A DNA stretch of 64,000 bases, taken from the NCBI GenBank assembly GCA_024516035.1, contig CM044957.1, positions 1,632,613-1,696,612 on the forward strand. Direction: 5' to 3'. The position numbers and the translations under genes were made by a program. The stretch is from Bactericera cockerelli (Eukaryota > Arthropoda > Insecta > Hemiptera > Triozidae). This document shows, piece by piece, positions 1 to 63,985 of the stretch. The stretch's first letter is position 1, and the number at the start of each line of letters is the position of its first letter. The notes beneath the pieces were generated by a model that saw only the letters and a program-made list of their open reading frames with translations, did no database searches and was not told the origin of the DNA.

Positions 1-400
1 TGTATATCCCTCCCACTCTGTTCTGTTCCATCTAAATACGTGAGGCTAGCTTTTCTAGCCTTGCCCAAGCTGGGTGCGGTTAATGTGGGTAGCTGGTACG
101 ATTCCCAGCGAATGGAGGATAAAACCCCCATCCTGACTATCTATCTCAATCAGGACGTTAAAACCAAATAGAATCAACTGGTTACAATAGATTTAATTAG
201 GTAGATAGATTTAATAAAATAGATTTAATTGTAAGGATTTCACTGAAAACCCTGCAACCAGGTCAGATAATAATAAGTGATATGTCTTAATGTGATCTAC
301 CAGCCATAGACGTTGGTTTTCTGTTACCCCTCTACATCTTGTGTGTATGATTGCAGGGTCTGGAAGTGATAGATACTACATCATGTGTGTATGATTGCAG
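1..400. other. TRRAP intron, 5' edge of window
   Basis: This is non-coding sequence upstream of the first visible TRRAP exon. Positions 57-175 carry a degenerate copy of a dispersed repeat (aagctgggtgcggttaatg, later cgttaaaaccaaa) that recurs at 14345-14490, 29385-29485, 42003-42130 and 61890-61985. Positions 335-400 hold a duplicated 3' splice site. Confidence 0.7.
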
Positions 401-410
401 GGCCTGGAAG
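335..410 (+). repeat. Duplicated 3' splice site before TRRAP exon
   Basis: The segment tgtgtatgattgcagggyct plus the following ggaagtgatag occurs twice, at about 342-372 and 382-416. The second copy contains the real acceptor at 399-400. The first has an equally good AG acceptor at 355-356. Its reading frame soon reaches TAG (agtgatag), so using it would insert a stop. Confidence 0.75.
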
Positions 411-497
411 TGATAGAGCACACCAACCTAACTTACCTGACCAAGGAAATGACGGCAGAGTTCTATGCTCTCAAGGGAATGTTGCTCGCGCAAATAG
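401..497 (+). CDS. TRRAP exon 1 of 8 visible (FAT domain)
   Basis: The exon is read from frame 0: GLEVIEHTNLTYLTKEMTAE, then FYALKGMLLAQI and one base of a Gly codon. The acceptor is ttgcag at 395-400. The donor is AAATAG|GTAAGG. That donor is the first unit of a long tandem array. Confidence 0.9.
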
Positions 498-3400
498 GTA
501 AGGCACCCTCAGAACAAGCAAATAGGTAAGGTACCCCCAGAACAAGCAAATAGGTAAGGCACCCTCAGAACAAGCAAATAGGTAAGGCACCCTCAGAACA
601 AGCAAATAGGTAAGGCACCCTCAGAACAAGCAAATAGGTAAGGCACCCTCAGAACAAGCAAATAGGTAAGGCACCCTCAGAACAAGCAAATAGGTAAGGC
701 ACCCTCAGAACAAGCAAATAGGTAAGGTACCCTCAGAACAAGCAAATAGGTAAGCAGCCTCAGAACAAGCAAATAGGTAAGGTACCCTCAGAACAAGCAA
801 ATAGGTAAGCAGCCTCAGAACAAGCAAATAGGTAAGGCACCCTCAGCAAATAGGTAAGGCACCCCCAGAACAAGCAAATAGGTAAGGCACCCTCAGAACA
901 AGCAAATAGGTAAGGTACCCTCAGAACAAGCAAATAGGTAAGACGCCCTCAGAACAAGCAAATAGGTAAGGCACCCCCAGAACAAGCAAATAGGTAAGGC
1001 ACCCCCAGAACAAGCAAATAGGTAAGGCACCCTCAGAACAAGCAAATAGGTAAGGCACCCTCAGAACAAGCAAATAGGTAAGGCACCCTCAGAACAAGCA
1101 AATAGGTAAGGCACCCTCAGAACAAGCAAACAGGTAAGGCACCCTCAGAACAAGCAAATAGGTAAGGCACCCTCAGAACAAGCAAATAGGTAAGGCACCC
1201 CCAGAACAAGCAAATAGGTAAGGCGCCCTCAGAACAAGCAAATAGGTAAGGCACCCTCAGAACAAGCAAATAGGTAAGGCACCCTCAGAACAAGCAAATA
1301 GGTAAGGCACCCTCAGAACAAGCAAATAGGTAAGGCACCCTCAGAACAAGCAAATAGGTAAGGCACCCTCAGAACAAGCAAATAGGTAAGGCACCCTCAG
1401 AACAAGCAAATAGGTAAGGCACCCTCAGAACAAGCAAATAGGTAAGGCACCCTCAGAACAAGCAAATAGGTAAGGCACCCTCAGAACAAGCAAATAGGTA
1501 AGGCACCCTCAGAACAAGCAAATAGGTAAGGCACCCTCAGAACAAGCAACTAGGTAAGGCACCCTCAGAACAAGCAAAAGGTAAGGCACCCTCAGAACAA
1601 GCAAATAGGTAAGGCACCCTCAGAACAAGCAAATAGGTAAGGCACCCTCAGAACAAGCAAAAGGTAAGGCACCCTCAGAACAAGCAAATAGGTAAGGCAC
1701 CCTCAGAACAAGCAAATAGGTAAGGCACCCTCAGAACAAGCAAATAGGTAAGGTACCCTCAGAACAAGCAAATAGGTAAGGCACCCTCAGAACAAGCAAA
1801 TAGGTAAGGTACCCTCAGAACAAGCAAATAGGTAAGGCACCCTCAGAACAAGCAAAAGGTAAGGCACCCTCAGAACAAGCAAATAGGTAAGGCACCCTCA
1901 GAACAAGCAAATAGGTAAAGCACCCTCAGAACAAGCAAAAGGTAAGGCACCCTCAGAACAAGCAAATAGGTAAGGCACCCTCAGAACAAGCAAATAGGTA
2001 AGGCACCCTCAGAACAAGCAAATAGGTAAGGTACCCTCAGAACAAGCAAATAGGTAAGGCACCCTCAGAACAAGCAAATAGGTAAGGCACCCTCAGAACA
2101 AGCAAAAGGTAAGGCACCCTCAGAACAAGCAAATAGGTAAGGCACCCTCAGAACAAGTAAATAGGTAAGGCACCCTCAGAACAAGCAAAAGGTAAGGCAC
2201 CCTCAGAACAAGCAAATAGGTAAGGCACCCTCAGAACAAGCAAATAGGTAAGGCACCCCCAGAACAAGCAAATAGGTAAGGCACCCTCAGAACAAGCAAA
2301 TAGGTAATGTTGGTATTGGCCATTCTGTGGTGGCCGCTTTGATGTAATGTTGAGATTGATGAGCCAGTAGTCATTCTACAGTAGTCATTCTACAGTAGTC
2401 ATTCGATAAATAAACTTACTAAGACTTCTTAAAATATGGTATCGTGGTGTTTGAAAATTTTTCTGAAATTAGTGAATTTCCATTGAAAATTTTGTGATAG
2501 CATTATTTTGTTTTTCGATTACTAGTGATCATGGATAAACTCGATGAGAAAGTGAAGGAGATGGTGAAGACATTAGTTGAACAACAAATGAAGACTTTGA
2601 AACAAAATTTGGTGGAAGAAAACCAACCAGACAGAGACAGCAAACTGAGAGTGACGAGCGTACGGAACGTGCCGGTCCCGAGTGTGTTGAGTCTGGAGGG
2701 TAACATGAAAGAAAATATTCACCATTTTCAAAGAATGTTTAACAATTATGCGGTATCAAGTGGATTAAACAAAGAAGAAATGAATGTTCAGGTATCAGTG
2801 ATGATGACAATTATTGGTGATGAAGCCAGCAAGATGATTTATAAACTTATTGAAGACCCAGAAAAACAAACGGTTGAGAACATTATAAAAAGTTTGGAAC
2901 AAAAACTTTGTCAAGAGGTGAATGTCAGATACGAAAGATATATATTCAATTGTATTAAACAAGAAGACAATGAAAATTACAGAGAATACTTCATGAATCT
3001 AAAATCAAAGGTGAAGTTATGTGAATACAAGCAAATGGAAGAAGAACTTCTTTTAGATAAAATAACTTGTTCAATCAAAGACATAAACATGCGAGAAAAA
3101 TTGTGGCTCAAGAAAAATATGAACTTAAATGATGCAATGCAAATGTGCATTGGAAGTGAAGAAATGAAACAACAAATCAGCTGCATGCAAGATGTGACAA
3201 ATAACATCAACAAAGTTTACACAAAGAATAATAAAAAGTATGTCAAACAAGAAAATAAAAAGTGCAATTTTTGTGGAAATAATTGGCATTCAGACTTGAA
3301 GATGTGTCCTGCTAAAGAAAAAGAATGTAATTACTGTCACAAAACTGGACACTTTGCGAGTGTATGTAGAAAGAAACTCAGTGTAAAACAAATTGAATAT

Positions 3401-6400
3401 TATGAAAATGGCAAAGAAAGTGACCAAGATGAAATTCTGAAAATTGAAAACACAAGCAAGAATGGTGTTTTTACAACACTGCAAGTGATCAATGATCAAA
3501 GTCAGGTATGTGATGTCAAATGTCAGCTTGACACTGGAGCCTCCTGTAACATAATCGGTGAAAAGAATCTGTTAAAAATTATAAACAAAACCAAAGTGTT
3601 ATTAAAACCTTGTTACACAATATTGAGAGCTTTTGGAGGTACCCAGATAAAACCTAGAGGTATTTATGCCCTGAAAATACGCAGACTAAATAAAATATTT
3701 TGCCTCGATTTCATAGTTGTTGAATATGAACACTGTCCTCTGTTATCTGCTCAAGCTTGTGATGAATTAAAACTCATTAGTTACTGTAATAAAGTAAAAG
3801 AACAAGAATCAAAACCACTTGATAGTAATATTCCTATGTCCACAGCAAATATTATGAAGAAATACAGTCATGTCTTTGAAGGTTTGGGGAAGATAAAAGG
3901 AGAAGTCGATTTGGAATTGACTAATGAAGTGGTCCCTGTGAGGCAAGCTCCTAGAAGAATACCAGTAGCACTAAAAGATGAATTGAGAAAAGAACTAGAT
4001 GATATGGTTCAACAAGGAATAATAATTGAGGAAGAAGGTTATACAGACTGGATAAGTAACCTCACAATGGTAAAGAAAAATGGAAAATTGAGAATTTGTC
4101 TGGATCCTAGTAATTTGAACACAGCATTGAAAGATGCAAAGCAACAGTTACCTACACTTGATGAAATTCTTCCAGAGCTGAACAATGCAAAAGTATTTTC
4201 AACAATGGATGCTAAAAAAGGATTTTGGATGATACAATTATCTGAAAAAAGCAGCAAAATGACAGCTTTTTGGACTCCATTTGCCAAATATAGATATCTT
4301 CGACTACCATTCGGAATATCAACTGCAATGGAAATATTTCAAAAGAAGATGTTGGAGATAACTAATCGATTGCGAGGTATTCATGTATTAGCAGATGATA
4401 TACTTATTGTTGGATATGGTAATACACATCAAGAAGCACAAAAAGATCATGATAAAAATTTGGAAAATTTGTTCGTAAAATTAGACAAAGCAAATGTCAA
4501 ATTAAATAAAGAAAAAACAAAACTATGTAAAAATGAAATAAAATTTTACGGTCACATACTAAGTGAAAATGGAGTGAAACCAGATGAATCAAAAGTATCC
4601 GCCATACTGAATATGCCCAAACCAACATGCAAAGAAGATTTATTCCGATTTCTAGGAATGGTGACATACCTATCGAGATACATTAAGAATCTATCAGATA
4701 TCAGTGAAACCTTGAGAAAAATAACACATCAAGATGAAATGTTTGTATGGAAAAATGAACAAGAAGAATGTTTCAAAAATATTAAAAAGAATATTGCTAA
4801 TGCAACATTGTTAAAATATTATGACCCTATAAAACCAGTTACCATTCAGACCGATTCATCATCATTTGCAATGGGATGTGCTTTAATTCAAGACAATGTT
4901 CCTGTGGCCTATGCATCAAAAACTCTCACAGAAACTCAAAGAAACTATGCACAAATAGAAAAGGAGATGCTAGCCATCGTATTTGCCTGTAATCGTTTTG
5001 ATCAGTATATCTGTGGAAGATCTAATGTAACAATTGAAACCGATCACAGTCCTTTAGTGAGCATTTTTAAGAAGCCATTATTGAAATCTCCAAAGAGACT
5101 ACAAAACATGATCCTTTCATTACAGCGATACAATATTATTGTTAAATATAAAAGTGGAAAAACAATGTACTTGGCAGATACGTTGTCACGTGCACCGGAG
5201 AGCATGAGCAACCAAGAAAAACAAATTGACATATATGAAATTAATACTGTTATGTTTGATCAAGTACATGTATTGGATGAATTGAACACTGGTATATACT
5301 ATACTGATGACAGAAGTGTTAAAATAAGTGATCAATCAATTGAAAAAATAATTGCAGAAACTATGAAAGATGGTCAGTTAAAGAAACTCAAAGAACAAAT
5401 CCTCAGAGGATGGCCCGAAAACAAGAATCAAGTCAGTGAAGACTTAAAATGCTACTGGAATTTTCGAATGGATTTAGTCATAGAAAATGGAGTCGTGTTA
5501 AAAAATAATCAAATTTTAATTCCCATATCACTACGACAAGAATTTTTGAAGAAAATACACAGTGGTCATCTTGGTATTGAAGCAACAAAGAAATTGGCAA
5601 AAGAAGCAGTATTTTGGCCGAATATGTTATCAGAAATTGAAGATACTGTGAAAGGATGTGAAACATGTGCTAAATTTGGCGAAAATCAGAAACGACTAGA
5701 AATGATGTCTCATGATGTAGCAAAATATCCATTTGAAAAAATAAGTATGGATGTATTTGAAATAAATATCAAAGGAAAACAAAGAAAATTTTTGGTGACA
5801 GTCGATCATTACTCAGATTTTTTTGAAATCGATGAAATTCATGATCTAACTCCAAAAACAACAGTTCTTATGTGCAAAAGAAATTTTAGCAGATATGGAA
5901 TACCAGAAAAAGTAATAACAGATAATGCAACAAATTTTACTGGAAGTGAATTTAAAATGTTCAGTAAAGAATGGGAATTTGAACATATAACATCAAGTCC
6001 ATACTACCCTCAAAGTAATGGTAAAGCAGAAGCATCTGTAAAAATAATAAAAAAGATGATAAAAAAAAGTATAGAAGAAAATGAAGATTTTTATAAGATG
6101 TTGCTCGTATTTAGGAATACTCCAAATAAAACAAATATGAGCCCTGCCAAAAGAATGATGTGTCGATGGCTAAGATGTCAGATCCCAAACTGGAATAAAT
6201 ATCAAGAAATGATAACTCTAAAGAATGTGAAGAAAAAATCAATGAAAATAGAAACAGAATAGCAAAGGTATACAATAGAAGCTGTGTGAAGAGAAGAAAT
6301 CTACAAGAAGGTGAACAGGTTTGGTACAAGAAGAAAATTGAAGATGAAAAATGGGAAAGAGGAAAAGTTATTAGTTGTGAGGGAAAACGTTCCTATCAAG

Positions 6401-9400
6401 TAGAAGATGAAGATGGAGCGGTATACAGAAGAAATGAAAAATTCATCAAACCAAACATATGTATAACTGAGAGCAATGAAACCGAAGAAGAATCAAGAAG
6501 TGATATTCAAGAAAAGGATGAACCAGAGATAAGAAGATCAACAAGAAAGAAACAACAACCTAGCCGGTATGGAGACTTTGTCATGCATTAAGAAGAGGGA
6601 TGTTGTGTGAAAGAACAAAGAAGAGGGGATGTTGGTATTGGCCATTCTGTGGTGACCGCTTTGATGTAATGTTGAGATTGATGAGCCAGTAGTCATTCTA
6701 CAGTAGTCATTCTACAGTAGTCATTCGATAAATAAACTTACTAAGACTTCTTAAAATAGGTAAGGCACCCTCAGAACAAGTAAATAGGTAAGGCACCCTC
6801 AGAACAAGTAAATAGGTAAGGCACCCTCAGAACAAGCAAATAGGTAAGGCACCCTCAGAACAAGCAAATAGGTAAGGCACCCTCAGAACAAGCAAATAGG
6901 TAAGGCACCCTCAGAACAAGCAAATAGGTAAGGCACCCTCAGAACAAGCAAATAGGTAAGGCACCCTCAGAACAAGCAAATAGGTAAGGCACCCTCAGAA
7001 CAAGCCCCCTTTTCAATTCAGCTTGGCTGGACACTATCCACCCCAGATGTAGTCACGCTGGTTACAAAAACAGCAAGTGTCAAGTGGTTAACGCGACTAC
7101 ATTGGTAGTCAAGTGCTTAACGCGCTAGTCTGGTAATCCAGTTAGCGCAGGGATCCGTTGGTTCGAATCCCACCCAGTGCATGAATTTTTCCTCCTTAAT
7201 TGGAGTTTGTGATCACATAATAATAAGACTCTAAGGGTTTGGTAGTAGAGAATACTTTGAGCATTAACCTCGCCTGGTGGTTAGCTTTCACTAAAGAGTG
7301 TTACAAAAATTATCAGAGTATCGGAAGTACAAATTTTTTCAGAGTATTGGAAGTACAAATTTTTCAGAGTATCGGAAGTACAAAATTTTCAGAGTATTGG
7401 AAGTACAAAATTTTCAGAGTATTGGAAGTACAAAATTTGACCGAGGAACGAAGAGGACAAGGAAAGTAAGTAGGTGAGTTCATAAGAGATAACTTGATAT
7501 AAGAAAAAAATCTATATATATCGACTGCGTCTATTTTAAAAAATCTATATATCTAGTTCGACTAAATTTTATTCCTCCCCCCGCCCCCTCTGTTCCAGGC
7601 CGCTCGAACGAGGCCAACAAGGCGTTCTGCCAGGCGGTGGAGACCCACGACGTGCTGGTGAAGGCCTGGGCCCTGTGGGGAGACTACATGGAGGCCCAGT
7701 TCACCTCCTCCACCCCGCTCAGTACGCCCCTGGGCGTCGCCGCCATCACCTGCTTCCTGCACGCCTGCCGCCACCAGAACGAACCCAAGAGCCGCAAGTA
7801 CCTCGCCAAGGTGAGCAGCTAGCTGCCTCCTCGTACTTTCTTTTACTTTTAAATTGAGTGTTTACTTTTCCGTAAATCCCTACGGATTCAGGGAAATACC
7901 CCCGTCGTGATAATATGAGCATGCAGTTGAAAGCGACGTATTACGCAATATGATTAAAAAAAGTAGTTCAGCTGTTCCTTTTATGAACACACTGTATGTT
8001 GGGTTGGGTGGAAGAGATTGCCATAGGTAATAACCCCGCCCTTTAGTTAGGACATATGATTCTATATATTTTTCTATTCTTTTTCATTTTTATTGTATTT
8101 ATTGTTTCCATTTTTTTTTTTCGTTGTTAAAATAATTATTTGTATTGTACATATGTCCATTTATATCTAATAAAGTGTTGAATAATAATAATAAATTTAC
8201 TTGAATATTCCAACTTTTTCTCTGACAAAGTTTTTCACCCCAAGTGGTGCTTGGGTGCGCGGGGCACTTGTCCGTGTGCTTGCAATTGATCCTCACAACT
8301 TCCCTAGCTTCATTTCTCTCTTTACCTACAGTTTACTTTTTAAATCTTACCGACCTCAGTAGCTTGAGCGATAAGGCAGCGGACTTGTAACCTGAAGGTC
8401 GGTGGTTCAAGTCCCGGTTTCAGCGTAGATTTAGTAAAGCGAGTTTGGGTAGTTGTGATATCACGAAAGTGATTAACACAAATATGATAACTTACTTTTT
8501 AAATCTTTATAATATTAAGGATTTAAATTGTTAACAATTGTGTTCAAATATTACGTTACAACTTGTCCAGTTACACTCAAGTAGCATATCCATGTGGATC
8601 TGAGCGAAGCCTTTGACAGATTCAACCATCAACTTCTACTCAATAAACTTCATGGTTATGGTCTCGTGGGTACTCTTCACAGTTGGTTCGCTCGCTAGTT
8701 ATCTTAATGAAAGGGTCTTGTGTTGTTCGTGTCGACTCTGCCTTACTTTTCTCTTCCAAACATCTATTCTCAGGTGTTCTGGCTGCAAACCTCCTTAATT
8801 ACTTTTCTCTTCCACACATCTATTCTCAGGTGTTCTGGCTGCAAACCTCCTTAATTACTTTTCTCTTCCACACATCTATTCTCAGGTGTTCTGGCTGCAA
8901 ACCTCCTTACTTACTTTTCTCTTCCAAACATCTATTCTCAGGTGTTCTGGCTGCAAACCTCCTTAATTACTTTTCTCTTCCAACATCTATTCTCAGGTGT
9001 TCTGGCTGCAAACCTCCTTAATTACTTTTCTCTTCCAACATCTATTCTCAGGTGCTCTGGCTGCAAACCTCCTTACTTACTTTTCTCTTCCACACTTCTA
9101 TTCTCAGGTGTTCTGGCTGCAAACCTCCTTACTTACTTTTCTCTTCCAACATCTATTCTCAGGTGTTCTGGCTGCAAACCTCCTTACTTACTTTTCTCTT
9201 CCAACATCTATTCTCAGGTGTTCTGGCTGCAAACCTCCTTACTTACTTTTCTCTTCCAACATCTATTCTCAGGTGTTCTGGCTGCAAACCTCCTTACTTA
9301 CTTTTCTCTTCCACACTTCTATTCTCAGGTGTTCTGGCTGCAAACCTCCTTACTTACTTTTCTCTTCCAACATCTATTCTCAGGTGTTCTGGCTGCAAAC

Positions 9401-12400
9401 CTCCTTAATTACTTTTCTCTTCCAACATCTATTCTCAGGTGCTCTGGCTGCAAACCTCCTTACTTACTTTTCTCTTCCAAACTTCCATTCTCAGGTGTTC
9501 TGGCTGCAAACCTCCTGAATTACTTTTTCTCTTCCAAACTTCTATTCTCAGGTGTTCTGGCTGCAAACCTCCTGAATTACTTTTCTCTTCCAAACATCTA
9601 TTCTCAGGTGTTCTGGCTGCAAACCTTCTTAGTGACTTTTCTCTTCCAAACTTCTATTCTCAGGTGCTCTGGCTGCAAACCTCCTTACTTACTTTTCTCT
9701 TCCAAACTTCTATTCTCAGGTGTTCTGGCTGCAAACCTCCTTACTTACTTTTCTCTTCCAAACATCCATTCTCAGGTGCTCTGGCTGGAAACCTCCTTAC
9801 TTACTTTTCTCTTCCAAACTTCCCTTCTCAGGTGTTCTGGCTGCTCACGTTCGACAGCGGCAAGGGCGGAGACGCCCACGGGCCCACCCTCATGGACCCC
9901 TGGACATGTACTCCGTGGGCATGCCGCCCATCCAGTGGCTGTCCTGGATCCCGCAGCTGCTCACCTGTCTGTCCATGAGCCACGGCGCCCCTGTCAAGGA
10001 TCTGCTCACACAGGTAACACGAGGGGCGGTTTCTCGCTGGGGGCAACATTTTGTTTCGAACCGTTGTGCAACATTTTATGCTCTGCTTTTTCTGTAAAAT
10101 TTATTTATGAGATATGGAAATCCTCAATTTGAGGATAGTTTACAGTACATTTTTTTTTTTACATTGTTCGAAGTTTTTCTTTAATATACTGTACAGTACA
10201 TTAAATAAAAACACAATACTTCCAATTTCATTTAGATACAGTTATTTTTAATTTTAAATACTATTTATAAAATTAGACTATTACTAGATACTACTTTTAA
10301 TACTAAAAATTATGGTACTTAAAATCAAATGAGATCGATGCCCACTGACCAAAAAATTTGCTTTGTTCCACATTGCATTAAAATTTGAGACATTGCGCTC
10401 AGTAGAAAACCTACGTTGAGAATTATTTGAAATCGATAACAGGATCTGAGTGAGATCTATAGTTCACAGAACTACTAGTAATAGCACTCTGAGGGTCAGA
10501 TGGTGAAAGATGCTGTAAGCGATCACCTCGCCTAGTGGTTGTCTTCCACTAGTCTATTAATATTGTTATTGTAACCAGCTGGGGGAGTGGTGGTCTCCAG
10601 TCAACTTAAGTGGAAAAGTTGGCTCGTTTTGAAGCACATATTTCTATGTGCGATCAACCATCCTGAGAACTTGGGTTTTTTTTATAAGCCATTAAACCTT
10701 TGGGAAACTGCAAGCTAGTCTGGCTTGTTAGCGTTCTCTGTTTATAGTCCTCTAGCGAGACACTAGTTACAAACAAGCGTTCGTTGATTGTGTGTTCTAT
10801 CTTTGTCATCATATAGTTACAGCCATAGCTCAGTTGGTGTGTTCTATCCTATTCCAATATACTTACAACCATACCTCCGTTGGTGTGTTCTATCTTGTTC
10901 CAATATACTTACAGCCTAGGTGTGTTCTATCTTGTTCCAATATACTTACAGCCTAGGTGTGTTCTATCTTGTTCCAATATACTTACAGCCTAGGTGTGTT
11001 CTATCTTGTTCCAATATACTTACAGCCTAGGTGTGTTCTATCTTGTTCCAATATACTTACAGCCTAGGTGTGTTCTATCTTGTTCCAATATACTTACAGC
11101 CTAGGTGTGTTCTATCTTGTTCTAATATACTTACAGCCTAGGTGTGTTCTATCTTGTTCCAATATACTCACAGCCTAGGTGTGTTCTATCTTGTTCCAAT
11201 ATACTTACAGCCTAGGTGTGTTCTATCTTGTTCCAATATACTTACAGCCTAGGTGTGTTCTATCTTGTTCCAATATACTTACAGCCTAGGTGTGTTCTAT
11301 CTTGTTCCAATATACTTACAGCCTAGGTGTGTTCTATCTTGTTCCAATATACTTACAGCCTAGGTGTGTTCTATCTTGTTCTAATATACTTACAGCCTAG
11401 GTGTGTTCTATCTTGTTCCAATATACTCACAGCCTAGGTGTGTTCTATCTTGTTCCAATATACTTACAGCCTAGGTGTGTTCTATCTTGTTCCAATATAC
11501 TCACAGCCTAGGTGTGTTCTATCTTGTTCCAATATACTTACAGCCTAGGTGTGTTCTATCTTGTTCTAATATACTTACAGTCTAGGTGTGTTCTATCTTG
11601 TTCTAATATACTCACAGCCATGCCTCTGATTGTGACTCTGCCCTCAGGTCAGTCGTGTGTACCCTCAGGCAGTGTACCTCCCCATCCGCACCATGTATAA
11701 CACACTCAAGATAGAGCAGAGGGCCCGGCTCAAGATTTCCGAACAGAATGGAAAACCTGTGAGTCTATCACTAGAGAACTATAGTTAGTTAGTTTTTTAG
11801 TTATCATATTTGTGTTAATCACAATCGTGATATCACAACTACTCAAATTCGCTACACACGTCCCGGTAGCTCAGTGGTAAAGGCGGCACTATGTGAATCC
11901 AGAGGTCGCGGGTTCGAAACCGAGCCGGGACATGACAAGTTTTCCTCCCATTTGGGATTTTTACCACATAATAATACGTCTTGGGCTTACTGCTGGAATA
12001 GTGGGACCTAATAGTCCTAATCAGGCAGTATAAATAAGGCGATATTATTATTATTACTAAATATTTGCTTAACTTGGGACTTGAACGGTTACAACGCCAT
12101 ATCGATCAAGGTAATTTTGTAATTTGTAATTTATTTTTGAATACTATTGGTAGTGGTAGTATGAATAGACCAAACTTTGTTCATAAAATGCGTTGTTAAC
12201 TTTTTTTCTTCCCCAAAAAATACTTTAACCCAGATGGGGCTGACGTCCCTCCAGAAGGACGCTTCAAAGGTACTACGCTGTGGATTTTTCTAATTAATTC
12301 AACTTGTTGGGAATAGTTGGCGACACCTCAAACTCTTTGTTTAGATTCCGAGTGAAAAGTTGACACCACTTTTATTTTGATTTATTTTTGCGTGTGAAAG

Positions 12401-15400
12401 TTTGGATAGCTGTGAATTTCAATGGATGAAAGAGACAAAAAATTCACGGCGTTATCTGGGTTAAAGGAACAGAAGGAAAAATGTTTTCTTATATTTTAAT
12501 TAAAATCGAACTTATTATTTTCAGCCCGACTCAGGGAATTCCTTGAACAGCCATCAGCTACCGTCCCCAGGTGAGTCTATGAAAGAAGAAGAAGGGTTGG
12601 GTGGAAGAGATTGCCATAGGCAATAACCCCGCCCTTTGGTTAGGACATACGGGGTCCGCCAAAAAAAAGGAGCCACTCGAAATATCAAGAGAACTGATTA
12701 AAATTTTAAAAAATGCTAAAACTCGTGTACCATTATATTGAGTGGGAAACCTTTACTACTAGTTTTTGATTTTTTATCATTACTAGGGGCTGCCCCAGGG
12801 GAGTTAACTTTCGAATCTTAAATGGAACCACCCTATTTGTAATAAATTTATGAAAACTAGTTGACATTAAAAGTATTTTAAGACAAGTTTGAGATTTTTA
12901 TTGAAAACAGGGTCGAATATTCTACATTTGATTTCACAGCTTTCAGATTTTTAAAGAAAATAATTGTATTTTTGTTAAAAAAAAAATTAAATACATGTTT
13001 TCCATTTGAAAGAATTGATTTTCATGCCCTTTTGATACCATTAGCTTTACCAGGGGAGGGGTCAATTTTTTTTTTTAATGGTGTAAAAACCATCATTTTT
13101 CGAGTATAATTTGTGCTAAATAAACGCAATTGCATATGTCCTAAATTACATGTGTCCTACATTACATGTCCTAAATTACATTTGCCCTGTTAATAATAAT
13201 AACGATATGTACGTCAGGTTCCCTAGAGGGGGGCAAGCAGGACGGGGATGCACTGAGAGACACCCCTGCCATGCGGCGCTGCCTCAGCATCATGCAGACA
13301 CAGCGGGAGATAGACCCGCCGGTCATGATAGCGCTCAAGACCATTGTGGATCAGGTATGCAACATATTATTATTATAGTATGCTTTATTAGGTAAGACAA
13401 AAATATACACAGTAAAATATAATGAAATTAAAAAGAAAAATTAAATAGATTGAACAAAAAAACAAGAACAAAAAAAATGATGAAGCTAATGTCCTACCTA
13501 AAGGGCGGGGTTATTGCCTGTGGCAATCTCTTCCATCCAACCCAACATACGAGGGGGGACCCAAAAGTAACGGGAATTAGGTGGTGGGGGGAATACGGAC
13601 GGGGGGATCGGGTTCTCCAGTGATTCTTTTCCAAGCGGCTACTCTTAGAAGTAAGTGTGCAAAGTTCATTTGATGTAAGTGCATTCGTTCGTCCGTGAGA
13701 ATTTTTCTAGTGAAACGACTTTTTTCGTTTCGGCGAAAACGTGAAGTGGCTTCAAGAACGGACAAAAACATTGAACAAATCGACACTCTTGTCCGTGAAG
13801 ACCTTGCAGAACCATCGATCAACTTTATGAAATGTCTGGATAGTCATGGAGTTCAATTCAGAGGATTTTAACTGAAGATTTGATCATGAAGGGGATTGCA
13901 GCCAAATTTGTTCCTCGCCTCCTCTCCGACGATCAAAACAAGGAGCGTTGAGACTTCAGGCCTGTCTGGAGCTGAAAAATCAGTTGGATGAAGACCCAGA
14001 TTTTTTTCTCAAGGTTATAACTGGCGATGAATCATGGCGCTACGGCTATGACACCGAAATTTTTACAGCCGCTCGTTGCTCGCCGCACTCAGCCATTTCA
14101 CGGTGCCATTTCACTTTTTCGCCGAAACGGAAAAAGTCGTTTCACTAGAAAAATTCTCACGGACGAACGAATGCACTCACAGCAAATGAACTTTGCACAC
14201 TTACTTGGGAGAGTAGCCGCTTGGAAAAGAATCACTGGAGAACCCGATCCCCCCCTCCGTGTTCCCCCTACCACCTAATTCCCGTTACTTTTGGGTCCCC
14301 CCTCGTACAGTGTGTTCAGTGTTCATAAAAGGAACAGCTGAACAACTTTTTTTATCATGTTGCGTTAAACGTCACTTTCAACTGCATGGTCATATCACGA
14401 CGGGGGTCTTTCCCTCCATTCACAGGGAACTCACAAACCTCCTACTCACATTAACCCAGCCTGGGTTGGGCCGGAACTTTGCTTAAATTCGGTGATCCTA
14501 CGAGAACCGGTGTATTCAACGCGCCATCGATGCTGGCGAAAATAATTTAATATTAATTAATTATCTCAGCGGTCTCAGTCAGTGTGACTGATTGTGTCTA
14601 AGAATTTGGAAAATGTGTTTTAATTTTAAGTTTTTTTTCTTCTCGATTGTAATGTATTCTTAAACAAATTTCTCGCCCATCATAGGGGAGCCATACTAAT
14701 GGTTGGACAGGCTACAACACAGACCGCAAGCGTCTGCAGTAGCTCCTGTTCCATGGCTACGAAAAAAAAGCTGTGAAACTATCTTTTTTTTTTTTTTTTT
14801 TTTTTTTTAAAGGCTGTGAAACTCTCATCTTTTTTTTTTTTTTTTTAAAGGCTGTGAAACTCTCATCTTTTTTTTTTTAAATGCTGTGAAACTCATCTTT
14901 TTTTTTTTTTTTTTTTTTAAAAAAAGGCTGTGAAAGTCTCATCTTTTTTTTTTTAACTATTCTTTCTATGTAAATATCTCCCCCTTGTCCAGATGTCGTG
15001 GTTCCGGGAGAGCTGGCACGAGCAGGTGCTGACTCAGGTGCGCATGGCTCTGGCCAAGTGCCACGGGCTGGCCTTTGAGAAGAGGGACCAGGGGAGGGGC
15101 GCCAGCATCACCGTGCACACCTTCAACTTCCTCACCAAGCTCATCTCCACCTTCGGCATAGGCGTGGGTGAGTGGTTCATAGGCGTGGGTGAGTGTTTCA
15201 GAATTCAGAGGCGTGGGTGAGTGTTTCAGAATTCAGAGGCGTGGGTGAGTGGTTCAGAATTCATAGGCGTGGGTGAGTGGTTCAGAATTCAGAGGCGTGG
15301 GTGAGTGGTTCAGAATTCAGAGGCGTGGGTGAGTGGTTCACAAATCAGAGGCGTGGGTGAGTGGTTCACAATTCAGAGGCGTGGGTGAGTGGTTCACAAT

Positions 15401-23018: not shown

Positions 23019-23185
23019 CAACCTCCATGGCTCAGTTGTTAAGAGCATTGGTTACTGACCCAGAGGTTGCGGGTTCGAATCCCGTTCGAGGCGGAAAATT
23101 CTGACCGAGTTTTTCCGTTTCCCGGAATGGCATGCATGTAAAGATAAAATGACCTGAGGTAATGCGAAAGGAGTTCCGGCGCAGA
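23019..23185 (+). mobile_element. tRNA-headed SINE (family A)
   Basis: The head is accctccatggctcag-like with gcgggttcgaatcccg as box B. The body reads ccgagtttttccgtttcc and ends aatgcgaaaggagttccgg. This is the commonest SINE of the window. Copies are at 30135-30300, 37468-37648, 42338-42484 (minus) and 46944-47137. Confidence 0.75.
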
Positions 23186-25756: not shown

Positions 25757-25800
<44 letters not shown>

Positions 25801-32180: not shown

Positions 32181-32234
<54 letters not shown>

Positions 32235-36972: not shown

Positions 36973-37003
<31 letters not shown>

Positions 37004-37467: not shown

Positions 37468-37648
37468 GCCGACCTCCGTGGCTCAGTGGTTAAGAGCATT
37501 GGTTACTGACCCGGAGGTTGCGGGTTCAAATCCCGGCCGGAGGGGAAATTTCTGACCGAAATTTTCCGTATCCGGAATGGCATGGATGTAAAGGTAAAGT
37601 GCCCTGAAGTAATGCGAAAGCGGTTCCGGGGCACACTTACCTTTAAAA
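37468..37648 (+). mobile_element. tRNA-headed SINE (family A)
   Basis: Nearly intact: head gccgacctccgtggctcagt, box B gggttcaaatccc, body ending gcggttccggggcacactta. Confidence 0.78.
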
Positions 37649-39220: not shown

Positions 39221-39221
39221 T

Positions 39222-39372
39222 TTACGTACTTGTGATTTTGTCGGGCGCCATGTGGCCCACGTCTCCGTAAACCCGCAGCGTGACGCGCCCGTTGGGGTAG
39301 ATCTGCAGCCAGGTGATGCTCGCGTGGTACAGCGAGAACCGCAGCCATGCCTCGGCCGGGAATTGCATCGAC
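39222..39372 (-). CDS. PGAM5 exon 5
   Basis: Reads [40 protein letters not shown], then MAPDKITST and TAA at 39222-39224. The end matches the known family C-terminus. Acceptor TCGACAG. Confidence 0.92.
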
Positions 39373-55226: not shown

Positions 55227-58200
55227 AAAAGTAGGTTGAGGAGTAAAATTGACACTTTATGAAATTCATATTTTTTAGAAGTTCTTTTTAAAAGTGGATT
55301 GAATAAAACAGTGAATATTCTTAGTAGTACACCACATTACAATAGAATAATTATTTAGGTTGGACACCTGACAGAATCAATAGCTACCTAAGATCTTTTA
55401 AAAACAGCTAAAGTATTGAGACAAGAGCTTTTTTACTTTTATTGGTTTATACTCTGACATTTAGTCAATCTTGAGAACGTCATTTTATACCCATTTTTCT
55501 GATTAATTTTCAAGATTATATTACAAAGCTGACACTGCAACAGCACAAGTAACAAATCTTGTGAATGTCATTCAAACACTTCATGGAAATCACTCAATTT
55601 TTACTGATATTGTACCCATTTTTCTTCTTAACTTTTGAGATTATACAGGGTGTTTAAAAAATATTGGACACCCCTATTCTAGTAATCTGTAGAAAATTTA
55701 GAGATATGCAATAACACTTTTTCTTTTACAGCAAAGGTTATGTTTTTTCTTCAAGAATTTTTGACTTCAGCAAGGGAGGCCGCAGGGGGTTCAACTCAGA
55801 AATCTTAATTTTAACCATTGAACCACCCATATTGCAATATATTTTTCAAAAAGCCATAGAATTCTTAATTCATTACAATAAATTTTGGTTCTGTCAGAAA
55901 CAGGACAATGACTGGAGTTTCGAAATTCTTGAAGTTGAGTATATTTTTGTGTTTCTGTGTTCTAATTTGATTTTGTCTTTGTAATGAACCTAAAATTAAG
56001 GCTCAAGGTCTCATAACTCTATTTAAATTACTCTCATAGATCCTTTTCAAACAAATGAAAACACAGATTTTTTTTTAAATATTTGATTACAAGACAGATT
56101 AGTAAAGCAGAAAGCTAAAATTTACTGTATTCAGCCAATCTTGTGAATTTCTAGTTTTAAAAAAAAAAAAAAAATCATAGAAATCACTTAATATTTTAAT
56201 GTCAATAATTCAGTAAATTGTACCCTTGATATTTCTATTGATCTTTTGAGAATTTATTTAGTATTCTCTCCTTGAGAAAATACCTGGAACTAAAAAGCAA
56301 CTGTTACATAAGGGTCAAAATTAGAGGGACGGAAGGTGTTTTTCACTTTGATGCCAAATATTTCCATGCAGCTGAAAAGTGATGTAACTTCTGTTGAAGG
56401 TAACATTTTCAAATAACTTATTTTGCATAAAATAAAACATTTTGAGTATTTTTACACTCACAAATCCAGAAATAATGACCGCGACTCAAGAAAAGAATAA
56501 TGAAATTTTGCAAAACTTACAGAGCATATTTCACAGATGTTATTATAATCGAGATTTTTAGGGACTTTTATTCCATAGAAAAAACTAAACAATCAAAAAT
56601 AAGCAGTACGCTAAGTTATATGTTTTCATCTTGATAATGTCTATAAGAAATTATACTGAAAAATCATGTGGAGTTATTTTAAAGAAACCAAATTTGGGGT
56701 TTTTTTTGGAGTATAGTTATATTAAATTTATGCAATTTAAACATTTTCAAGGTAGAATCTATTTTTTTTCATACCACCTATTTGACATTTCTTTTATTAT
56801 TGATCTATTTATTACTAGTTTGGAAGTATGTATGTATAAAATGTACCTAACCTGTGTAATCAACAAATTTAATATTATGTGAAACTACAAAATAAAGTAA
56901 AATATAGTTTATATATAATGCAAAAAATATATATTATGCATATGTTTTTCGTACAATTTTTTTTATTGGGTTCCTTTTCTGTTTTATTGAATTTTCGTGT
57001 TGCAATCGAAATACCTGCAATTTCATGGTCAAAAATGCTAGATTTGTAAATAATATTAATCCATACAAAATTTGAGCATTTCAGTAGATTGTGACAAAAT
57101 ATAGTAATGATAATAATAGTAATTGAATGCGTGTCCATGTTACGAATTTTGAAAATCTTCTACTTGAAAATAATGATCGAGGTTGGTTTTTGGAATACAT
57201 ACCTCCAAATTATTTTTTAACAAAAATGATTACAAGCCCTATCTTTAAAACATTTCTCAAAAAAAAAAAAATCGAAGCTAAATAATATATTCTCAACACC
57301 TCCCTGGTCATTATATTCAAACGTAAACCACTTCCAAAAGTTGTAATATAGATCGTTTTCGAGATACGCATTCAGTTATAGATAATAAGAGATACTTTTG
57401 TTTATATTGCCAATGAGGACTGAAAAGTACCATTATTCCCGCAGTTGATTTGGTGCCACTATTATGTAGTCAAAGTGTCAAGTAAATGAGATAAAATTCA
57501 TGCATTGAGTAGGATTCGAACTAACGGATCGATGCGCTAACTGGATTACCAGACCAGCGCCTTAACCACTCGACCAATGCAAAATGAAGTACGTTCATGT
57601 TTGTGCCCAAGTACCTATGGATTTCCTTGCTTCTTTTCCAGGTAAATCCCACTCATAGGTAAAGTATTGTGGGATCTAGTGTTGGAGTTGATTCAACTAT
57701 TATGAAGCACTGACGAGGACCAGTTGTGTTTCTAACGGAAAGCAGTGAGCAAGAGATCTGATTGTTAAGTCTCCTCTGTAAACAAATACATTTTATTACT
57801 ACTTTCCTTTCTATAGAATTAGGAAAGTAAAAAAGTGCCCGAAACACAATACTCTCTATACCTTACGAGGTAATGGAAAGTAAAAGAAGAGATTACAATT
57901 AGAAATATGTTAGTTTTTCTGCCGGTGCTGGACTAAAGAGTCCTTTTTTGTGAGCAATTTCAACTAAGTCAGTAACATTTATCTTTTCGTACTTATAAAT
58001 AAGTTAAATAAATGAGAATAGAAAGAAATAAAACACGTAAAACTTAAAGAAAAAGAAATTGAATTTAAAGCAAGAATAGAGCAAGGTCTGCTAACTGTCA
58101 AAGCAATAGAAGGAGTGACAACGTTAAAGAAGAACAACGAAATATTCATTCAGTAAGTATTATTATTATAGGCTGGTTGGAGTTCCACAAGAGAAGCACC

Positions 58201-58697: not shown

Positions 58698-59822
58698 TTA
58701 CCGACAGTCCCACGGGGACTCAGTGGTCAAGGCGTCGCCCTCGGTCTGGACATGAGGTCACGGGTTTGAATCCCAGCCGGGACATGACATTTTTCCTTTT
58801 TTTTGGAAGAAGAATGTTTTATTTATTTTTATTAAATATAAAAAACTTGTCCCAGGGACCGTCCTTCTGGAAGGGAACCGAGGATGCAAGAAGCATTTCC
58901 TCTTTGAATGGCCAGACCAATTTTTTTGGTAAAGAAAATCTTTTCCTTATATTTGTGATATTGACCACATAATAATACGTGGCTTACTGCTGGAATAATA
59001 ATAATAATAATAATAGTTTTTAATAATAATAATAATAATAGTTATTGGGACTCAGTAGTCCTAGTCGGGCAGTACAGATACTTCCGGTACCCTATACCTA
59101 AGTATTGCTGTACTATTAGGGAATAACATTTGGTTCGTTGGTTGCTTGAGTTCATATCCATTCTCTAATTTTACCAGCCTCGTTACAGTTAGGGCTGCGG
59201 CGCGTTTACCGAGGCATGGTCGTATTTTTTTTTATTTAAGATTATCACTTTTCAAGAAGTGCTAAATACTTCTTTGTATTACGTATTCTCACCTAATAAC
59301 TGTGAATAAATTATTGTTCAGAAATCATGTTTGAGATTAAATACAAAGTAATTGCATTATTATTGGGGAAATCCTTTTTCTTTATTTTTCGATTCTACTT
59401 GGATGATCAGATTTTTTTGTGAAAAAGTAGCAACAATTACGGTTTGAGTATTCTAAATGTTCTCTTACACTGCCATTAGAAATCGTAGCAAATTTCAACT
59501 GGTTAAAAATATGTCGGTTTTTTGTGTGAAAGCTCAGTTAAATAGCAGCTCGACTTTTCAAAAAAGGATCAGTTTAAAAACCTCATATTCTAACTAGACT
59601 CAAATTATTTTATTAGTCAATACAAAATATTATCTCCTCCGAAGTCTTCCTACTGGTCTTGGTAACCATGTTGAATTTCAGCTCAATCCGACTTGTGGTT
59701 ATCGAGTTTTACTTGTTTAATTTAAACTTGCTTACAAGCCAGCGTTGAATATGTTCAGTGACAGAAAGAGAACCTATTTCCGTCACTGAATTTAAGCATC
59801 GCCCAGCAAGTTTAGGACTTGG
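58698..59822. other. Region between PIG-P and the reverse transcriptase
   Basis: Positions 58707-59080 are a family-B tRNA-headed SINE (gtcccacggggactcagtgg; box B gggtttgaatccc) with an internal insertion and a TAA microsatellite. The remainder to 59822 is AT-rich with nothing recognised. Confidence 0.6.
58707..59080 (+). mobile_element. tRNA-headed SINE (family B) with insertion
   Basis: The head resembles the copy at 11858-12058. The body element ccacataataatacgt is displaced by about 170 bp of extra sequence, and the end ctagtcgggcagta is retained. Confidence 0.65.
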
Positions 59823-61805
59823 GTGGGACCATTCAATTTTGACCATTCAATGCGGAAAAAAGAGGGAGGTTTGCGACCCATAGCTATTGGAAATGTTTTC
59901 CGACGCTTGGTCGGAAAGATAGCTTGCTTCCATGTAAGAAATATTTCTACCGATTATCTCCTTCCTCACCAAGTTGGTGTGTCTGCTAAAAGTGGTTGTG
60001 AGGCAGCTATTCACGCCACTAGGACATTTATACACGAAGAACAAAACGTTAACAAGATTGTATTGAAAGTTGATTGGAGGAACGCGTTCAACAGCGTAGA
60101 AAGAGATGTGATCTTGAAAGAAGTAAGAGATAAGTTTCCTACAATCTACCCTTTTCTCTATCAATGTTACAGGGACAAAACGTATTTGAATTTTGGAATG
60201 CAAAATATTTGGTCTGAAGTAGGCGCTCAGCAGGGAGACCCATGTGGAGCTTTGATATTCAGTGCAGCTATTCACCCTATTATAACAAAGTTGAAATCAG
60301 AAGTTAATATCTGGTACCTAGATGATGGAACAATAGCTGGCGAACACGATACGGTTCTGAAAGATCTTAATTTTCTCATCCGAGAGGCCAAAGAGATTGG
60401 ATTAGAAATTAATCCCAGCAAATGTGAGCTCTATTTCTGTTCCAATACTATTGTAAAAAATGTTCTAGATCAATTTAAGGAGTTAGCCCCTGACATCAAA
60501 CTAACTCGTAAAGAAGATTTCACTTTACTTGGTGCGCCATTGTGTGATGAATCTTTCAAATCTAACATTGAAAAGAAAACATGCAAAGTTTTAAATTTAT
60601 TAGAAAGAGCAACTAAACTTACTTCCCATGTTGCTTATACCTTGTTAAAGAACTGTTTGTATGTACCAAAATTTAGTTTTCTTCTACGCTGCAGCCCGTT
60701 TTGGAAGTTTCCTGATGTCTGTGAAAACCTGGACAACGCATTAAAATCTTCATTTGAAATAATATTGAACATGAATTTGAAGAACAATGAATGGGAACAA
60801 TCGTGTTTACCCATCAGTAAAGGAGGTATGGGATTAAGAAAAATTCAAGATATATGTTTACCAGCATTCTTAGCCTCGGTTCATAGTGTAGATACTTTGG
60901 TATCTAGAATTCTTCCCCCACAGGATACCAAAGTCAATATTCACATGTACACCGAGGCATTGGATACCTGGAGGAATGCTTATGTCACCATGCCTGAAGT
61001 GCTAGATTCGCAAAAAAGTTGGGATGACGTCAGTGTTTGCAACATCATGGACACAAAAATACAATTATCTACCCCGGAAGACTCAGCACGAATCAAAGCC
61101 CTTCAAAGAACAGAATCGAATGCATGGCTTCATGCAATGCCATCCACCAATGTTGGTACCAAACTAGATGACATATCCTTCAGATTTTGTGTGGGATTAC
61201 GATTGGGATGCCAGCTATCATATCCCCATGTATGTGTATGTGGTCAGCGTGTTGAGGGGAAGGGAGTGCATGGACTCAGTTGCTCCAAGAGTGCAGGCCG
61301 TTTTTCACGGCACTCAGAACTAAATCAAATCATCCATCGAGCATTGTCAACTATCGGTTTCCATTCCACATTAGAACCCTCCGGCATTTTCCGCAATGAT
61401 GGAAAAAGACCGGACGGAATGACACTTATACCTTGGAGCAAAGGCCAGCATCTTGTGTGGGACGTGACCTGTGTGGATACGCTCGCTGCCTCGTACATAC
61501 AAAGGACCTCACAAGAGGCTGGCGCAGCAGCAGAATTAGCAAGTGATAAGAAGACGAAAAAATACGAAGCTCTGACACATCAATACTGTTTCTATGGCTT
61601 GGCTGTCGAAACACTGGGACCATTTTCTCGGCAGTTCAAGTCTTTGGTAGACGCAATTTCAGACAAGTTACAACACACATGTGGTGATACCAGGGCCGGG
61701 GCATTCTTACGCCAACGACTGTCATTGGCAGTCCAGCGTGGAAATGCCTCGAGCCTGGTAGGCACCATGTGTCGTGAGAAGAATGATGACATGTTTGTTA
61801 TATGA
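59823..61805 (+). CDS. 5'-truncated non-LTR reverse transcriptase with R2-type endonuclease
   Basis: An open frame of 660 codons begins without a real start and enters directly in the reverse transcriptase fingers (KKEGGLRPIAIGNVFRRLVG), so the 5' part of the element is missing. RT motifs seen: LKVDWRNAFNSV (catalytic D84), AQQGDPCGALIF (136 onward), WYLDDGT (YLDD 165-168) and GLEINPSKCELYF. The C-terminal third holds a zinc-binding C-x-C...H...C cluster from residue 471 and a PD-(D/E)xK-like motif (KRPDGM with D531; VWDVTC with D547). This order, RT followed by zinc knuckle and restriction-like endonuclease, is typical of R2/NeSL-type elements. The uninterrupted frame suggests fairly recent insertion. 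No target duplication or 3' tail could be defined. Confidence 0.78.
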   Translation: MGPFNFDHSMRKKEGGLRPIAIGNVFRRLVGKIACFHVRNISTDYLLPHQVGVSAKSGCEAAIHATRTFIHEEQNVNKIVLKVDWRNAFNSVERDVILKEVRDKFPTIYPFLYQCYRDKTYLNFGMQNIWSEVGAQQGDPCGALIFSAAIHPIITKLKSEVNIWYLDDGTIAGEHDTVLKDLNFLIREAKEIGLEINPSKCELYFCSNTIVKNVLDQFKELAPDIKLTRKEDFTLLGAPLCDESFKSNIEKKTCKVLNLLERATKLTSHVAYTLLKNCLYVPKFSFLLRCSPFWKFPDVCENLDNALKSSFEIILNMNLKNNEWEQSCLPISKGGMGLRKIQDICLPAFLASVHSVDTLVSRILPPQDTKVNIHMYTEALDTWRNAYVTMPEVLDSQKSWDDVSVCNIMDTKIQLSTPEDSARIKALQRTESNAWLHAMPSTNVGTKLDDISFRFCVGLRLGCQLSYPHVCVCGQRVEGKGVHGLSCSKSAGRFSRHSELNQIIHRALSTIGFHSTLEPSGIFRNDGKRPDGMTLIPWSKGQHLVWDVTCVDTLAASYIQRTSQEAGAAAELASDKKTKKYEALTHQYCFYGLAVETLGPFSRQFKSLVDAISDKLQHTCGDTRAGAFLRQRLSLAVQRGNASSLVGTMCREKNDDMFVI

Positions 61806-62211
61806 AATATTAAATATTTATGTATTTACCCAGTTTTTCAATACATTGAAATAGCAGGTTTTGAACCCTCGTTTCAAAATTCCCGACCCCTAGGTGAGTA
61901 GCTGGTTTGTGAGTTTCTAGCGAGTGGAGGGTGAAACACCCGTAGTGTGATATGACCATGCAGTTCAAAGCGACTTTAAAAAAACAATACATTCACATAA
62001 ATTAAAAAATAAAAGTCTCCTGTTACGCGACATTGGCTGGAAATGTGTCGCCAAGATCTTAGGGTAGCGGCATTGACTTGAAATGTGTCGCCCAGATTTT
62101 AGGCGGGCGGCATTAGCTAGACATGTGTCGCCCAGATCTTAGGCGGGCGGCATTGGCTAGACATGTGTCGCCCAGATCTTAGGCGGGCGGCATTGGCTGG
62201 ACTTGTGTCTC
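61806..62211. other. Region 3' of the aminopeptidase and reverse transcriptase
   Basis: Positions 61890-61985 hold a cgacgttaaa-family dispersed repeat. Positions 62030-62211 hold four to five copies of a unit of about 55 bp (gggcggcattggctagacat, gtgtcgcccagatctt). The last copy runs into the aminopeptidase stop codon region. Confidence 0.65.
62030..62211. repeat. 55-bp array at the aminopeptidase stop codon
   Basis: The unit ggcattggctagacatgtgt, cgcccagatcttaggcggg is repeated about four times. The terminal version reads cattggctggacttgtgtct and then cctagacgtc, which contains the minus-strand stop codon. This array too is anchored at a gene boundary. Confidence 0.8.
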
Positions 62212-62370
62212 CTAGACGTCGTCGTTGCAGGTGTTATTCTTGAGCCACTGGGTCAGGGGCGCCCCGTGTTTTTGCACCCACTTGATGTTGTTCTGGATGG
62301 ACTCCAGGGCCTGCTTGCGGCCCGCAGCCCCTGCCCCGGCCTCGGGGTATTTGGCGAAGAAGCTTTTCAC
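62212..62370 (-). CDS. M1 aminopeptidase terminal exon
   Basis: 53 codons including TAG, phase 0. SFFAKYPEAG...ALESIQNNIKW is the conserved end of the ERAP1-like domain. Acceptor TGTCCTCAG. Confidence 0.9.
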   Translation of the reverse strand: MKSFFAKYPEAGAGAAGRKQALESIQNNIKWVQKHGAPLTQWLKNNTCNDDV

Positions 62371-63556
62371 CTGAGGACATGGAACAGGTCAATACAACAC
62401 TCTGTGTACAAGTCTTTCACCTGAGGACATGGAACAGGTCAATACAATACTCTGTGTACAAGTCTTTCACCTGAGGACATGGAACAGGTCAATACAATAC
62501 TCTGTGTACAAGTCTTTCACCTGAGGACATGGAACAGGTCAATACAATACTCTGTGTGTACAAGTCTTTCACCTGAGAACATGGAACAGGTCAATACAAT
62601 ATTCTGTGTACAAGTCTTTCACCTGAGGACATGGAACAGATCAATACAATACTCTGTGTGTACAAGTCTTTCACCTGAGGACATGGAACAGATCAATACA
62701 ATACTCTGTGTGTACAAGTCTTTCACCTGAGGACATGGAACAGGTCAATACAATACTCTGTGTGTACAAGTCTTTCACCTGAGGACATGGAACAGGTCAA
62801 TACAATACTCTGTTTATCCTACAAGAATGAGACTTAGGGTCACATTATAAACTAAGAATGACTGATAAGAGGGCGCAGCCATTTCAAATACCCCTATACT
62901 TTGAAGTCCCCAATAATACAGGCGCTTGATGTATATAACAACACTAATGACAATGACAGACCAAATATTATTATTTTATAGTAGTCACCGTGGCAGAGTG
63001 AGTTAGCCCGCTGGGCATTGCACGCACGGTGACCTGGGTTCGATCCCCAGCGGGGCAGGAATTTTTCTGCTCTGTACTTGGATGTTCGGGGTCCACTCAT
63101 ACCTCGTGAGGAAAAATGAGTAGTTACTTGTATGAGTAACGACCAGTGGCGGCATTACCAGAGTAAAAAGAAATTAATGTAATAGAATAATTCTCCTCCC
63201 CTCCCCTCCCCCTCACCTCCTGGAGCCTCTCCTCCCCCCCCCTCTCACCTCCTGGAGCCTCTCCTCCCTGTCTCCCCTCCCCCCCCTCTCACCTCCTGGA
63301 GCCTCCCCTCCCCTCACCTCCCCCCCCCCTCACCTCCTGGAGCCTCTCCTCCGTGGTGAACTTGCCGCACACGGTGGGCACGATGCGGCCGAACACGCGG
63401 CTGTTGAGGCCGAAGCGGCCCACCAGGTAGTCCCAGTGGCTCCGGATGAAGTCCCAGGCGAGCGGCAGGCCCGTGGGGTTGTTGCCCACCATGGCTATCA
63501 CGCTGAAGTAGTCCTGGGACCGGATGTTCTTCTCGTCCTTGGCCATCTCCAGGAAT
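62212..63556 (-). CDS. M1 family aminopeptidase, last two exons
   Basis: A zinc metallo-aminopeptidase of the M1 family (aminopeptidase N / glutamyl aminopeptidase type). Only the C-terminal ERAP1-like helical domain is in view. Minus-strand exons are 63334-63556 (FLEMAKDEKNIRSQDYFSVI, AMVGNNPTGLPLAWDFIRSH, then FTTEERLQE) and 62212-62370 (VKSFFAKYPEAGAGAAGRKQ, ALESIQNNIKWVQKHGAPLT, then QWLKNNTCNDDV). Phases agree and give 126 residues plus stop. The catalytic HEXXH domain lies beyond the right edge. All three splice boundaries present are embedded in minisatellites. Confidence 0.88.
62365..62815. repeat. 50-bp minisatellite copying the terminal-exon acceptor
   Basis: About nine copies. On the minus strand each unit contains gttccatgtcctcag|gtgaaag, the pyrimidine tract, AG and first exon bases of the terminal aminopeptidase exon. 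The linker is acttgtacacagagtattg. Some units have an extra tg. Confidence 0.94.
62980..63175 (+). mobile_element. tRNA-headed SINE (family C)
   Basis: Head gtagtcaccgtggcagagtg, box B gggttcgatcccc, body ccactcatacctcgtgagga and cagtggcggcattacc. It is in the aminopeptidase intron, opposite to the gene. Confidence 0.78.
63190..63333. repeat. Minisatellite copying the penultimate-exon donor
   Basis: Three to four irregular copies of ctcacctcctggagcctctc. On the minus strand this is gaggctccaggag|gtgag, the exon end plus the 5' splice site, separated by C-rich runs of variable length. Confidence 0.85.
63334..63556 (-). CDS. M1 aminopeptidase penultimate exon
   Basis: It completes a codon with one base and then reads FLEMAKDEKNIRSQDYFSVI and so on to EERLQE. 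The acceptor is TGATTCAG and the donor is GAG|GTGAGG. GNNPTGLPLAWDFIRSHW is typical of the family. Confidence 0.9.
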
Positions 63557-63985
63557 CTGAATCAGAATAATAATAATAAAAATAATAATCATAACACTTG
63601 GCCATCTCCAGGAATCTGGATCAGAATAATAATAATAAAAATAATAATCATAATACTTGGCCATCTCCAGGAATCTGGATCAGAATAATAATAATAAAAA
63701 TAATAATCATAACACTTGGCCATCTCCAGGAATCTGGATCAGAATAATAATAAAAATAATAATCATAATACTTGGCCATCTCCAGGAATCTGGATCAGAA
63801 TAATAATAATAAAAATAATAATCATAACACTTGGCCATCTCCAGGAATCTGGATCAGAATAATAATAATAAAAATAATAATCATAATACTTGGCCATCTC
63901 CAGGAATCTGGATCAGAATAATAATAATAAAAATAATAATCATAATACTTGGCCATCTCCAGGAATCTGGATCAGAATAATAACT
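63538..63985. repeat. 60-bp minisatellite copying the penultimate-exon acceptor
   Basis: About eight copies. On the minus strand each has a TAATAATAAT-rich tract, ctgatccag and |attcctggagatggccaag, the first 19 bases of the exon. The true acceptor copy reads ctgattcag. The unit also carries a variable number of ATA triplets. The array reaches nearly to the window edge. Confidence 0.94.

Follow-up and report, generated by a model that had tools for sequence, protein, structure and literature searches.

Tandem Arrays Spanning Exon–Intron Junctions in a Psyllid Genome Window Resemble the Mirages of Amphioxus

Introduction

The closest described counterparts of the arrays analyzed here are the amphioxus 'mirages', minisatellite-like tandem duplications of exon–intron boundaries described in the globin genes BflGb6 and BflGb9 (PMC3087553), with an earlier case in Adh3, for which allelic length differences and somatic instability are reported (cited through PMC3087553), and further ones in PGBD5 and troponin C (PMC3902484). 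In the globin study, mirage units measure 10–160 bases, occur at donor and acceptor sites and leave splicing apparently undisturbed, and mirages are proposed as a source of new introns (PMC3087553). A second related group comprises introns gained by tandem duplication, such as the AGGT exon duplication of Rogers, the vertebrate ATP2A1 case, and potato RdRp, in which one tandem duplication crossing an intron–exon boundary is reported to have created an intron (PMC4974935).

The present analysis concerns a stretch of 64,000 bases from Bactericera cockerelli (assembly GCA_024516035.1, contig CM044957.1, positions 1,632,613 to 1,696,612), hereafter the window, in which 7 of 27 splice junctions lie inside tandem arrays whose units consist of exon bases plus the splice site. 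An initial annotation had been aware of no described system of this kind, but the same arrangement has been published as amphioxus mirages (PMC3087553, PMC3902484). Both have locus-specific units that span the boundary, at 5′ as well as 3′ splice sites; the psyllid units, of 21–59 bases, fall within the mirage range, the units of PGBD5 being of 60 and 108 bases (PMC3902484), and many amphioxus units are reported to retain the AG/GT signals and to vary in concert within an array (PMC3087553, PMC3902484). The differences concern the host, here an insect and there a cephalochordate; the copy number, up to 89 here versus 3 and 6 in two BflGb6 haplotypes (PMC3087553); and the density, higher here with 7 of 27 junctions affected in a single window. 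For amphioxus there are data on instability and on RNA, whereas the psyllid arrays are known from the sequence of one assembly.

The cases of intron gain likewise involve copied splice signals and, in potato, a duplicate that crosses the intron–exon boundary, but there one or a few duplications yield a new intron (PMC4974935), whereas the arrays of the window set many copies behind a junction that is itself old and genuine. Neither an exonic unit, as in the Rogers type, nor related intron sequences at many loci, as in introners, were found in the window: the units comprise 6–19 exon bases, the remainder being intron, and are unrelated between loci. Ordinary intronic minisatellites (VNTRs) share the unit length, copy number, variant copies and multi-unit periods; the arrays of the window differ from them by their edges at exon boundaries and by units that carry coding bases and a splice site. 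Among the literature matches listed, boundary-spanning minisatellites appear in amphioxus only, although an insect report may still exist; so far as the search reached, the arrangement belongs to a kind already recorded in amphioxus, whereas its occurrence in an insect, its density and its copy number had no precedent.

Gene Content of the Window

The window holds the 3′ part of TRRAP and PAT1, the latter a single open frame, on the plus strand, and PGAM5 and the 3′ end of an M1 aminopeptidase gene on the minus strand; a further plus-strand open frame presumably resembles PIG-P. The joined exons of TRRAP and the aminopeptidase align to solved homologues, PAT1 and PGAM5 were identified against a protein collection, and the exon models define the 27 splice junctions (17 in TRRAP, seven in PGAM5, three in the aminopeptidase). 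When a gypsy element, PAT1 and PGAM5 were compared with named sequences, some of the best relatives came from Diaphorina citri, Cacopsylla melanoneura and Cyamophila willieti, all of them psyllids, and identity to D. citri is 54–56%, 61–64% and 88%, respectively. One-base breaks of the reading frame occur within otherwise conserved exons of TRRAP (9832–10013 and about 19380–19420, near its 3′ end) and PGAM5 (42959–43172); they are probably consensus errors, although real breaks are possible, and the sequence past the second TRRAP break is presumably the 3′ end of that gene.

Other elements accompany these genes. A 669-residue open frame (59796–61805) lies beside the aminopeptidase gene and presumably belongs with non-LTR reverse transcriptases, which it resembles, and a TRRAP intron contains, at 13560–14310, what we take from a peptide motif to be a decayed mariner-like element with inverted ends. 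Rfam and ARAGORN gave tRNA matches only (23021–23093, 37473–37544 and 57501–57580), possibly the heads of tRNA-derived SINEs.

Tandem Arrays at Splice Junctions

Tandem Repeats Finder (TRF) rows with a period of at least 10 and a score of at least 100 were merged into 17 intervals, which became 16 arrays when 6754–7005 was counted into array B (Table 1). Seven of the 16 (A, B, D, G, L, M and N) span a junction, with copy numbers from two to about 90; both types of boundary are duplicated, donors in B, G and M and acceptors in A, D, L and N, and the seven junctions of PGAM5 are all unaffected. The arrays make up 15.9% of the window; of this amount, 68% falls to the junction-spanning arrays, B being taken with both parts. 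The merged TRF row of array G starts at 15176, nine bases into the intron; the donor is crossed by another row, 15157–15200 (score 81), joined to the main one by hand.

Table 1. Tandem arrays of the window, with the element inserted in array B (window coordinates; exact site copies include the genuine site)
Feature	Position	Strand	Location	Units and copies	Exon bases inside	Exact site copies	Frame-shifting decoys
Array A	332–417	+	TRRAP acceptor, exon start 401	2 copies of 44 bases	17	2	1/1
Array B, part 1	490–2307	+	TRRAP donor after 497	28-base units, 65 copies	8	64 (donor, AGGTAAG; part 1 only)	42/63
Gypsy element	2308–6753		inside array B				
Array B, part 2	6754–7005	+	beyond the gypsy insertion	9 more copies			
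Array C	7306–7438		intronic, 161 bases from a junction				
Array D	8742–9844	+	TRRAP acceptor before 9832	56-base units, about 20 copies	13	20 (acceptor)	14/19
Array E	10811–11619	+	29 bases before TRRAP acceptor 11648, without spanning it	37/46-base units with acceptor-like motif			
Array F	14792–14954		intronic, 39 bases from a junction				
Array G	15157–17796	+	TRRAP donor after 15167	21-, 28- and 43-base units, 89 copies	11	87 (donor, GTGGGTGAGT)	56/86
Minisatellite	23913–24525		thousands of bases from any modeled exon	54-base units			
Minisatellite	34819–35286		thousands of bases from any modeled exon	23-base units			
Array J	38559–39221	−	edge one base away from the apparent PGAM5 stop	about 71-base units, about 10 copies			
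Array K	62027–62216	−	overlaps aminopeptidase stop codon 62212–62214	40-base units, about 5 copies			
Array L	62365–62813	−	aminopeptidase acceptor 62370	50/52-base units, about 9 copies	6	8	4/7
Array M	63195–63352	−	aminopeptidase donor 63334	G-rich 32/41-base units, 4 donor copies	19	4	2/3
Array N	63538–63983	−	aminopeptidase acceptor 63556	59-base units, about 7.6 copies	19	8	5/7

Of the eight boundary arrays claimed initially, seven are as described, whereas the eighth, array J in PGAM5, lies beside the coding end and is at most a candidate for a spanned junction. Its units hold CAG|GTGAGT, in seven exact copies, and the apparent stop (39222–39224) gives the protein a shorter end than in P0153 (D. 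citri) and P0154, two relatives that extend past the same point. An alternative donor, ACAA|GTACGT, derived by hand, could end the exon at 39230, in which case array J would begin eight bases inside an intron; a search for a downstream exon by the NYS motif of the relatives returned two matches (30482 and 24683), neither of them convincing. Array K at the aminopeptidase stop, the intronic arrays C, E and F, and four intergenic arrays did not figure in the initial claim. The two minisatellites far from any modeled exon may lie in truly intergenic sequence or else point to genes missed by annotation. The region of array D (8647–10132) contains long open stretches in all three forward frames, which could mislead gene predictors into calling coding sequence.

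Genuine Sites, Decoys and Splicing

The duplication of the junctions themselves was measured with a 24-base window centered on each junction, a displaced copy being sought within 300 bases. At the seven affected junctions 21–23 of the 24 bases match such a copy, with 23 at the two-copy array A, versus 12–15 at the other 20. In all seven arrays the genuine site is the outermost copy on the exon side, that is, the first in B, G and M and the last in A, D, L and N, and up to 86 matching decoys lie behind it. Decoys would shift the reading frame about as often as chance predicts, in roughly two thirds of cases (Table 1).

When the joined reading frame is aligned to homologues, the outermost copies are the ones used, and no insertion is found at these junctions; splicing thus probably uses the outermost copy, and the continuity of the frame in the modeled mRNA is consistent with regular splicing. 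The same alignments bear on the idea that the arrays represent transitional stages in intron gain or sliding, in which the duplicated junctions supply new splice sites. The potato intron, reported to come from a boundary-crossing tandem duplication (PMC4974935), and the proposal of the amphioxus authors that mirages lead to new introns (PMC3087553) provide precedents for it, but the TRRAP and aminopeptidase models align with the outermost sites only and display no exon or intron made from an inner copy, so that this origin is regarded as quite improbable.

The extra sites could also be useful in themselves, for example as a reservoir for the binding of U1 or U2 particles, by securing exon recognition, or by shielding long transcripts against early cleavage. 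In agreement with this, all eight alignments, drawn from six arrays (D, L, N and J, with B and G each split in two), show less variation in the splice core than elsewhere in the unit, and the non-junction array E shows more. Nevertheless, only array B comes near significance, with 0.04 of circular windows varying as little versus 0.14–0.79 in the other alignments, the copies of an array being non-independent and the arrays measured only six; besides, 20 of the 27 junctions do without extra copies. A function of the repetition is possible on the pattern of variation, but selection for useful extra sites seems very unlikely as the explanation of the arrays.

Placement of the Arrays

When the 16 arrays were placed at random in the non-coding sequence, the mean number spanning a junction was 0.14 at full length and 0.15 in the 60-base version, the maximum was three, and none of 3000 trials reached the observed seven in either version; array B was represented here by 490–2307 only, without 6754–7005, and for G the start 15157 was used in place of 15176. 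Under uniform placement of each array within its own intron, 0.5 of nine array edges would be expected to meet a junction, and six do (P about 1.4 × 10−6); array N, whose intron leaves the window, was left out, J, K and the intergenic arrays stand outside the test, intron lengths were entered by hand, and the limit of 20 bases of exon overlap was set after the overlaps of 6–19 bases were known. For seven of ten arrays, P is 4 × 10−8, 6 × 10−7 and 4 × 10−5 with 20, 30 and 60 allowed spanning positions per junction, respectively, 1.25 arrays being expected at 60. All these tests are descriptive and post hoc, since they were run on the same window that prompted the idea.

Counted per position, repetition ran against enrichment at junctions: at a cutoff of 18/24 or more, 43% of the intron control positions (1097 of 2553) were repeated versus 26% of the junctions (7 of 27), while outside the seven arrays the count was 171 of 1620. 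The arrays thus fill the introns they lie in, and their special feature is where they begin. The initial claim that arrays start at junctions non-randomly is accordingly sustained for array edges within the window, but not as a matter of repeat coverage per base, which is higher in introns. An array-rich genome whose ordinary intronic minisatellites, without any junction preference, reach exons at some edges by accident would account for this higher coverage, for the nine of 16 arrays that span no junction, and for the untouched junctions of PGAM5; it would not be expected to yield six junction edges in nine or seven spanning arrays in ten, and is for this reason judged unlikely. The G+C content of the exon edge was also tried as a predictor and rejected, the ranges at the seven affected junctions (0.48–0.70) and the 20 unaffected ones (0.43–0.73) overlapping.

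Origin and Growth of the Arrays

The units were initially said to have arisen independently, and this is borne out: the longest match between loci is 10 bases, by which a shared or mobile origin is ruled out within the window. The units of arrays F, N and I also have matches elsewhere in the window, those of F and N in low-complexity runs. Array A represents a two-copy stage, and TRF periods of several units were obtained in D (166), L (102) and N (233). In array D the similarity of copies drops with the distance between them, and in array B no such drop was found; in arrays other than these two the measure is blurred by truncated or mixed units. The boundaries between copies, inspected by eye, carry a two-base match (B) or a short filler (A and D) and no long homology, which would fit small duplications by end joining or slippage. 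Hairpin-driven expansion was considered by folding six two-copy units as DNA, and because five of them gave z values between −1.57 and 1.23, with N at −2.40, hairpins offer no general explanation.

The gypsy element is flanked by copies of array B on both sides, which makes the array older than the insertion; its LTRs differ at one of 114 compared bases, and its open reading frame is 99% identical to P0001. This insertion, with array on either side, also speaks against an assembly artefact, in which a noisy long-read assembly would have collapsed or invented repeats, as do the seven unrelated units, their internal variants and the multi-unit periods. The one-base frame breaks do suggest consensus errors, and hence copy numbers may be wrong, but an artefactual origin of the arrays as such is considered extremely improbable.

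The reading favored here, with a probability of roughly 0.7, is that the arrays are mirage-type minisatellites in an insect, that is, small junction-spanning duplications tolerated by means of the outer copy and then expanded. A short tandem duplication, with units mostly of 28–59 bases, would by chance straddle an exon–intron junction; it would survive because the exon-side copy still yields a correct mRNA, and later slippage or unequal exchange would enlarge the array inside the intron. The arrays would thus grow by one of these two processes and would be nearly neutral. The suggestion made initially, that selection tolerates duplications leaving a usable site, accounts for the survival of the arrays, but alone it cannot put them at junctions rather than within introns, so that a bias in the start site is also needed, and the first duplications appear to have been biased to junctions.

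Junctions might even be genuine mutational hot spots, at which this lineage gains tandem duplications through a process linked to transcription or splicing; for instance, a stalled RNA–DNA hybrid, or nascent RNA bound by snRNPs at the junction, could set off the initial break or slip. Mirages would then be a recurrent and mechanistically driven class of DNA in animals that arose separately in insects and cephalochordates. This stronger proposal is offered tentatively, as possible though doubtful.

Concluding Remarks

The arrays of the window extend a little-discussed amphioxus phenomenon to insects, where it is denser and reaches higher copy numbers; this suggests recurrence. Two questions become testable with them, namely whether duplication favors junctions as hot spots and by what means the spliceosome chooses the correct site among up to 87 matching ones. 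If the arrangement is general in psyllids, gene prediction and short-read assembly would be disturbed in this group.
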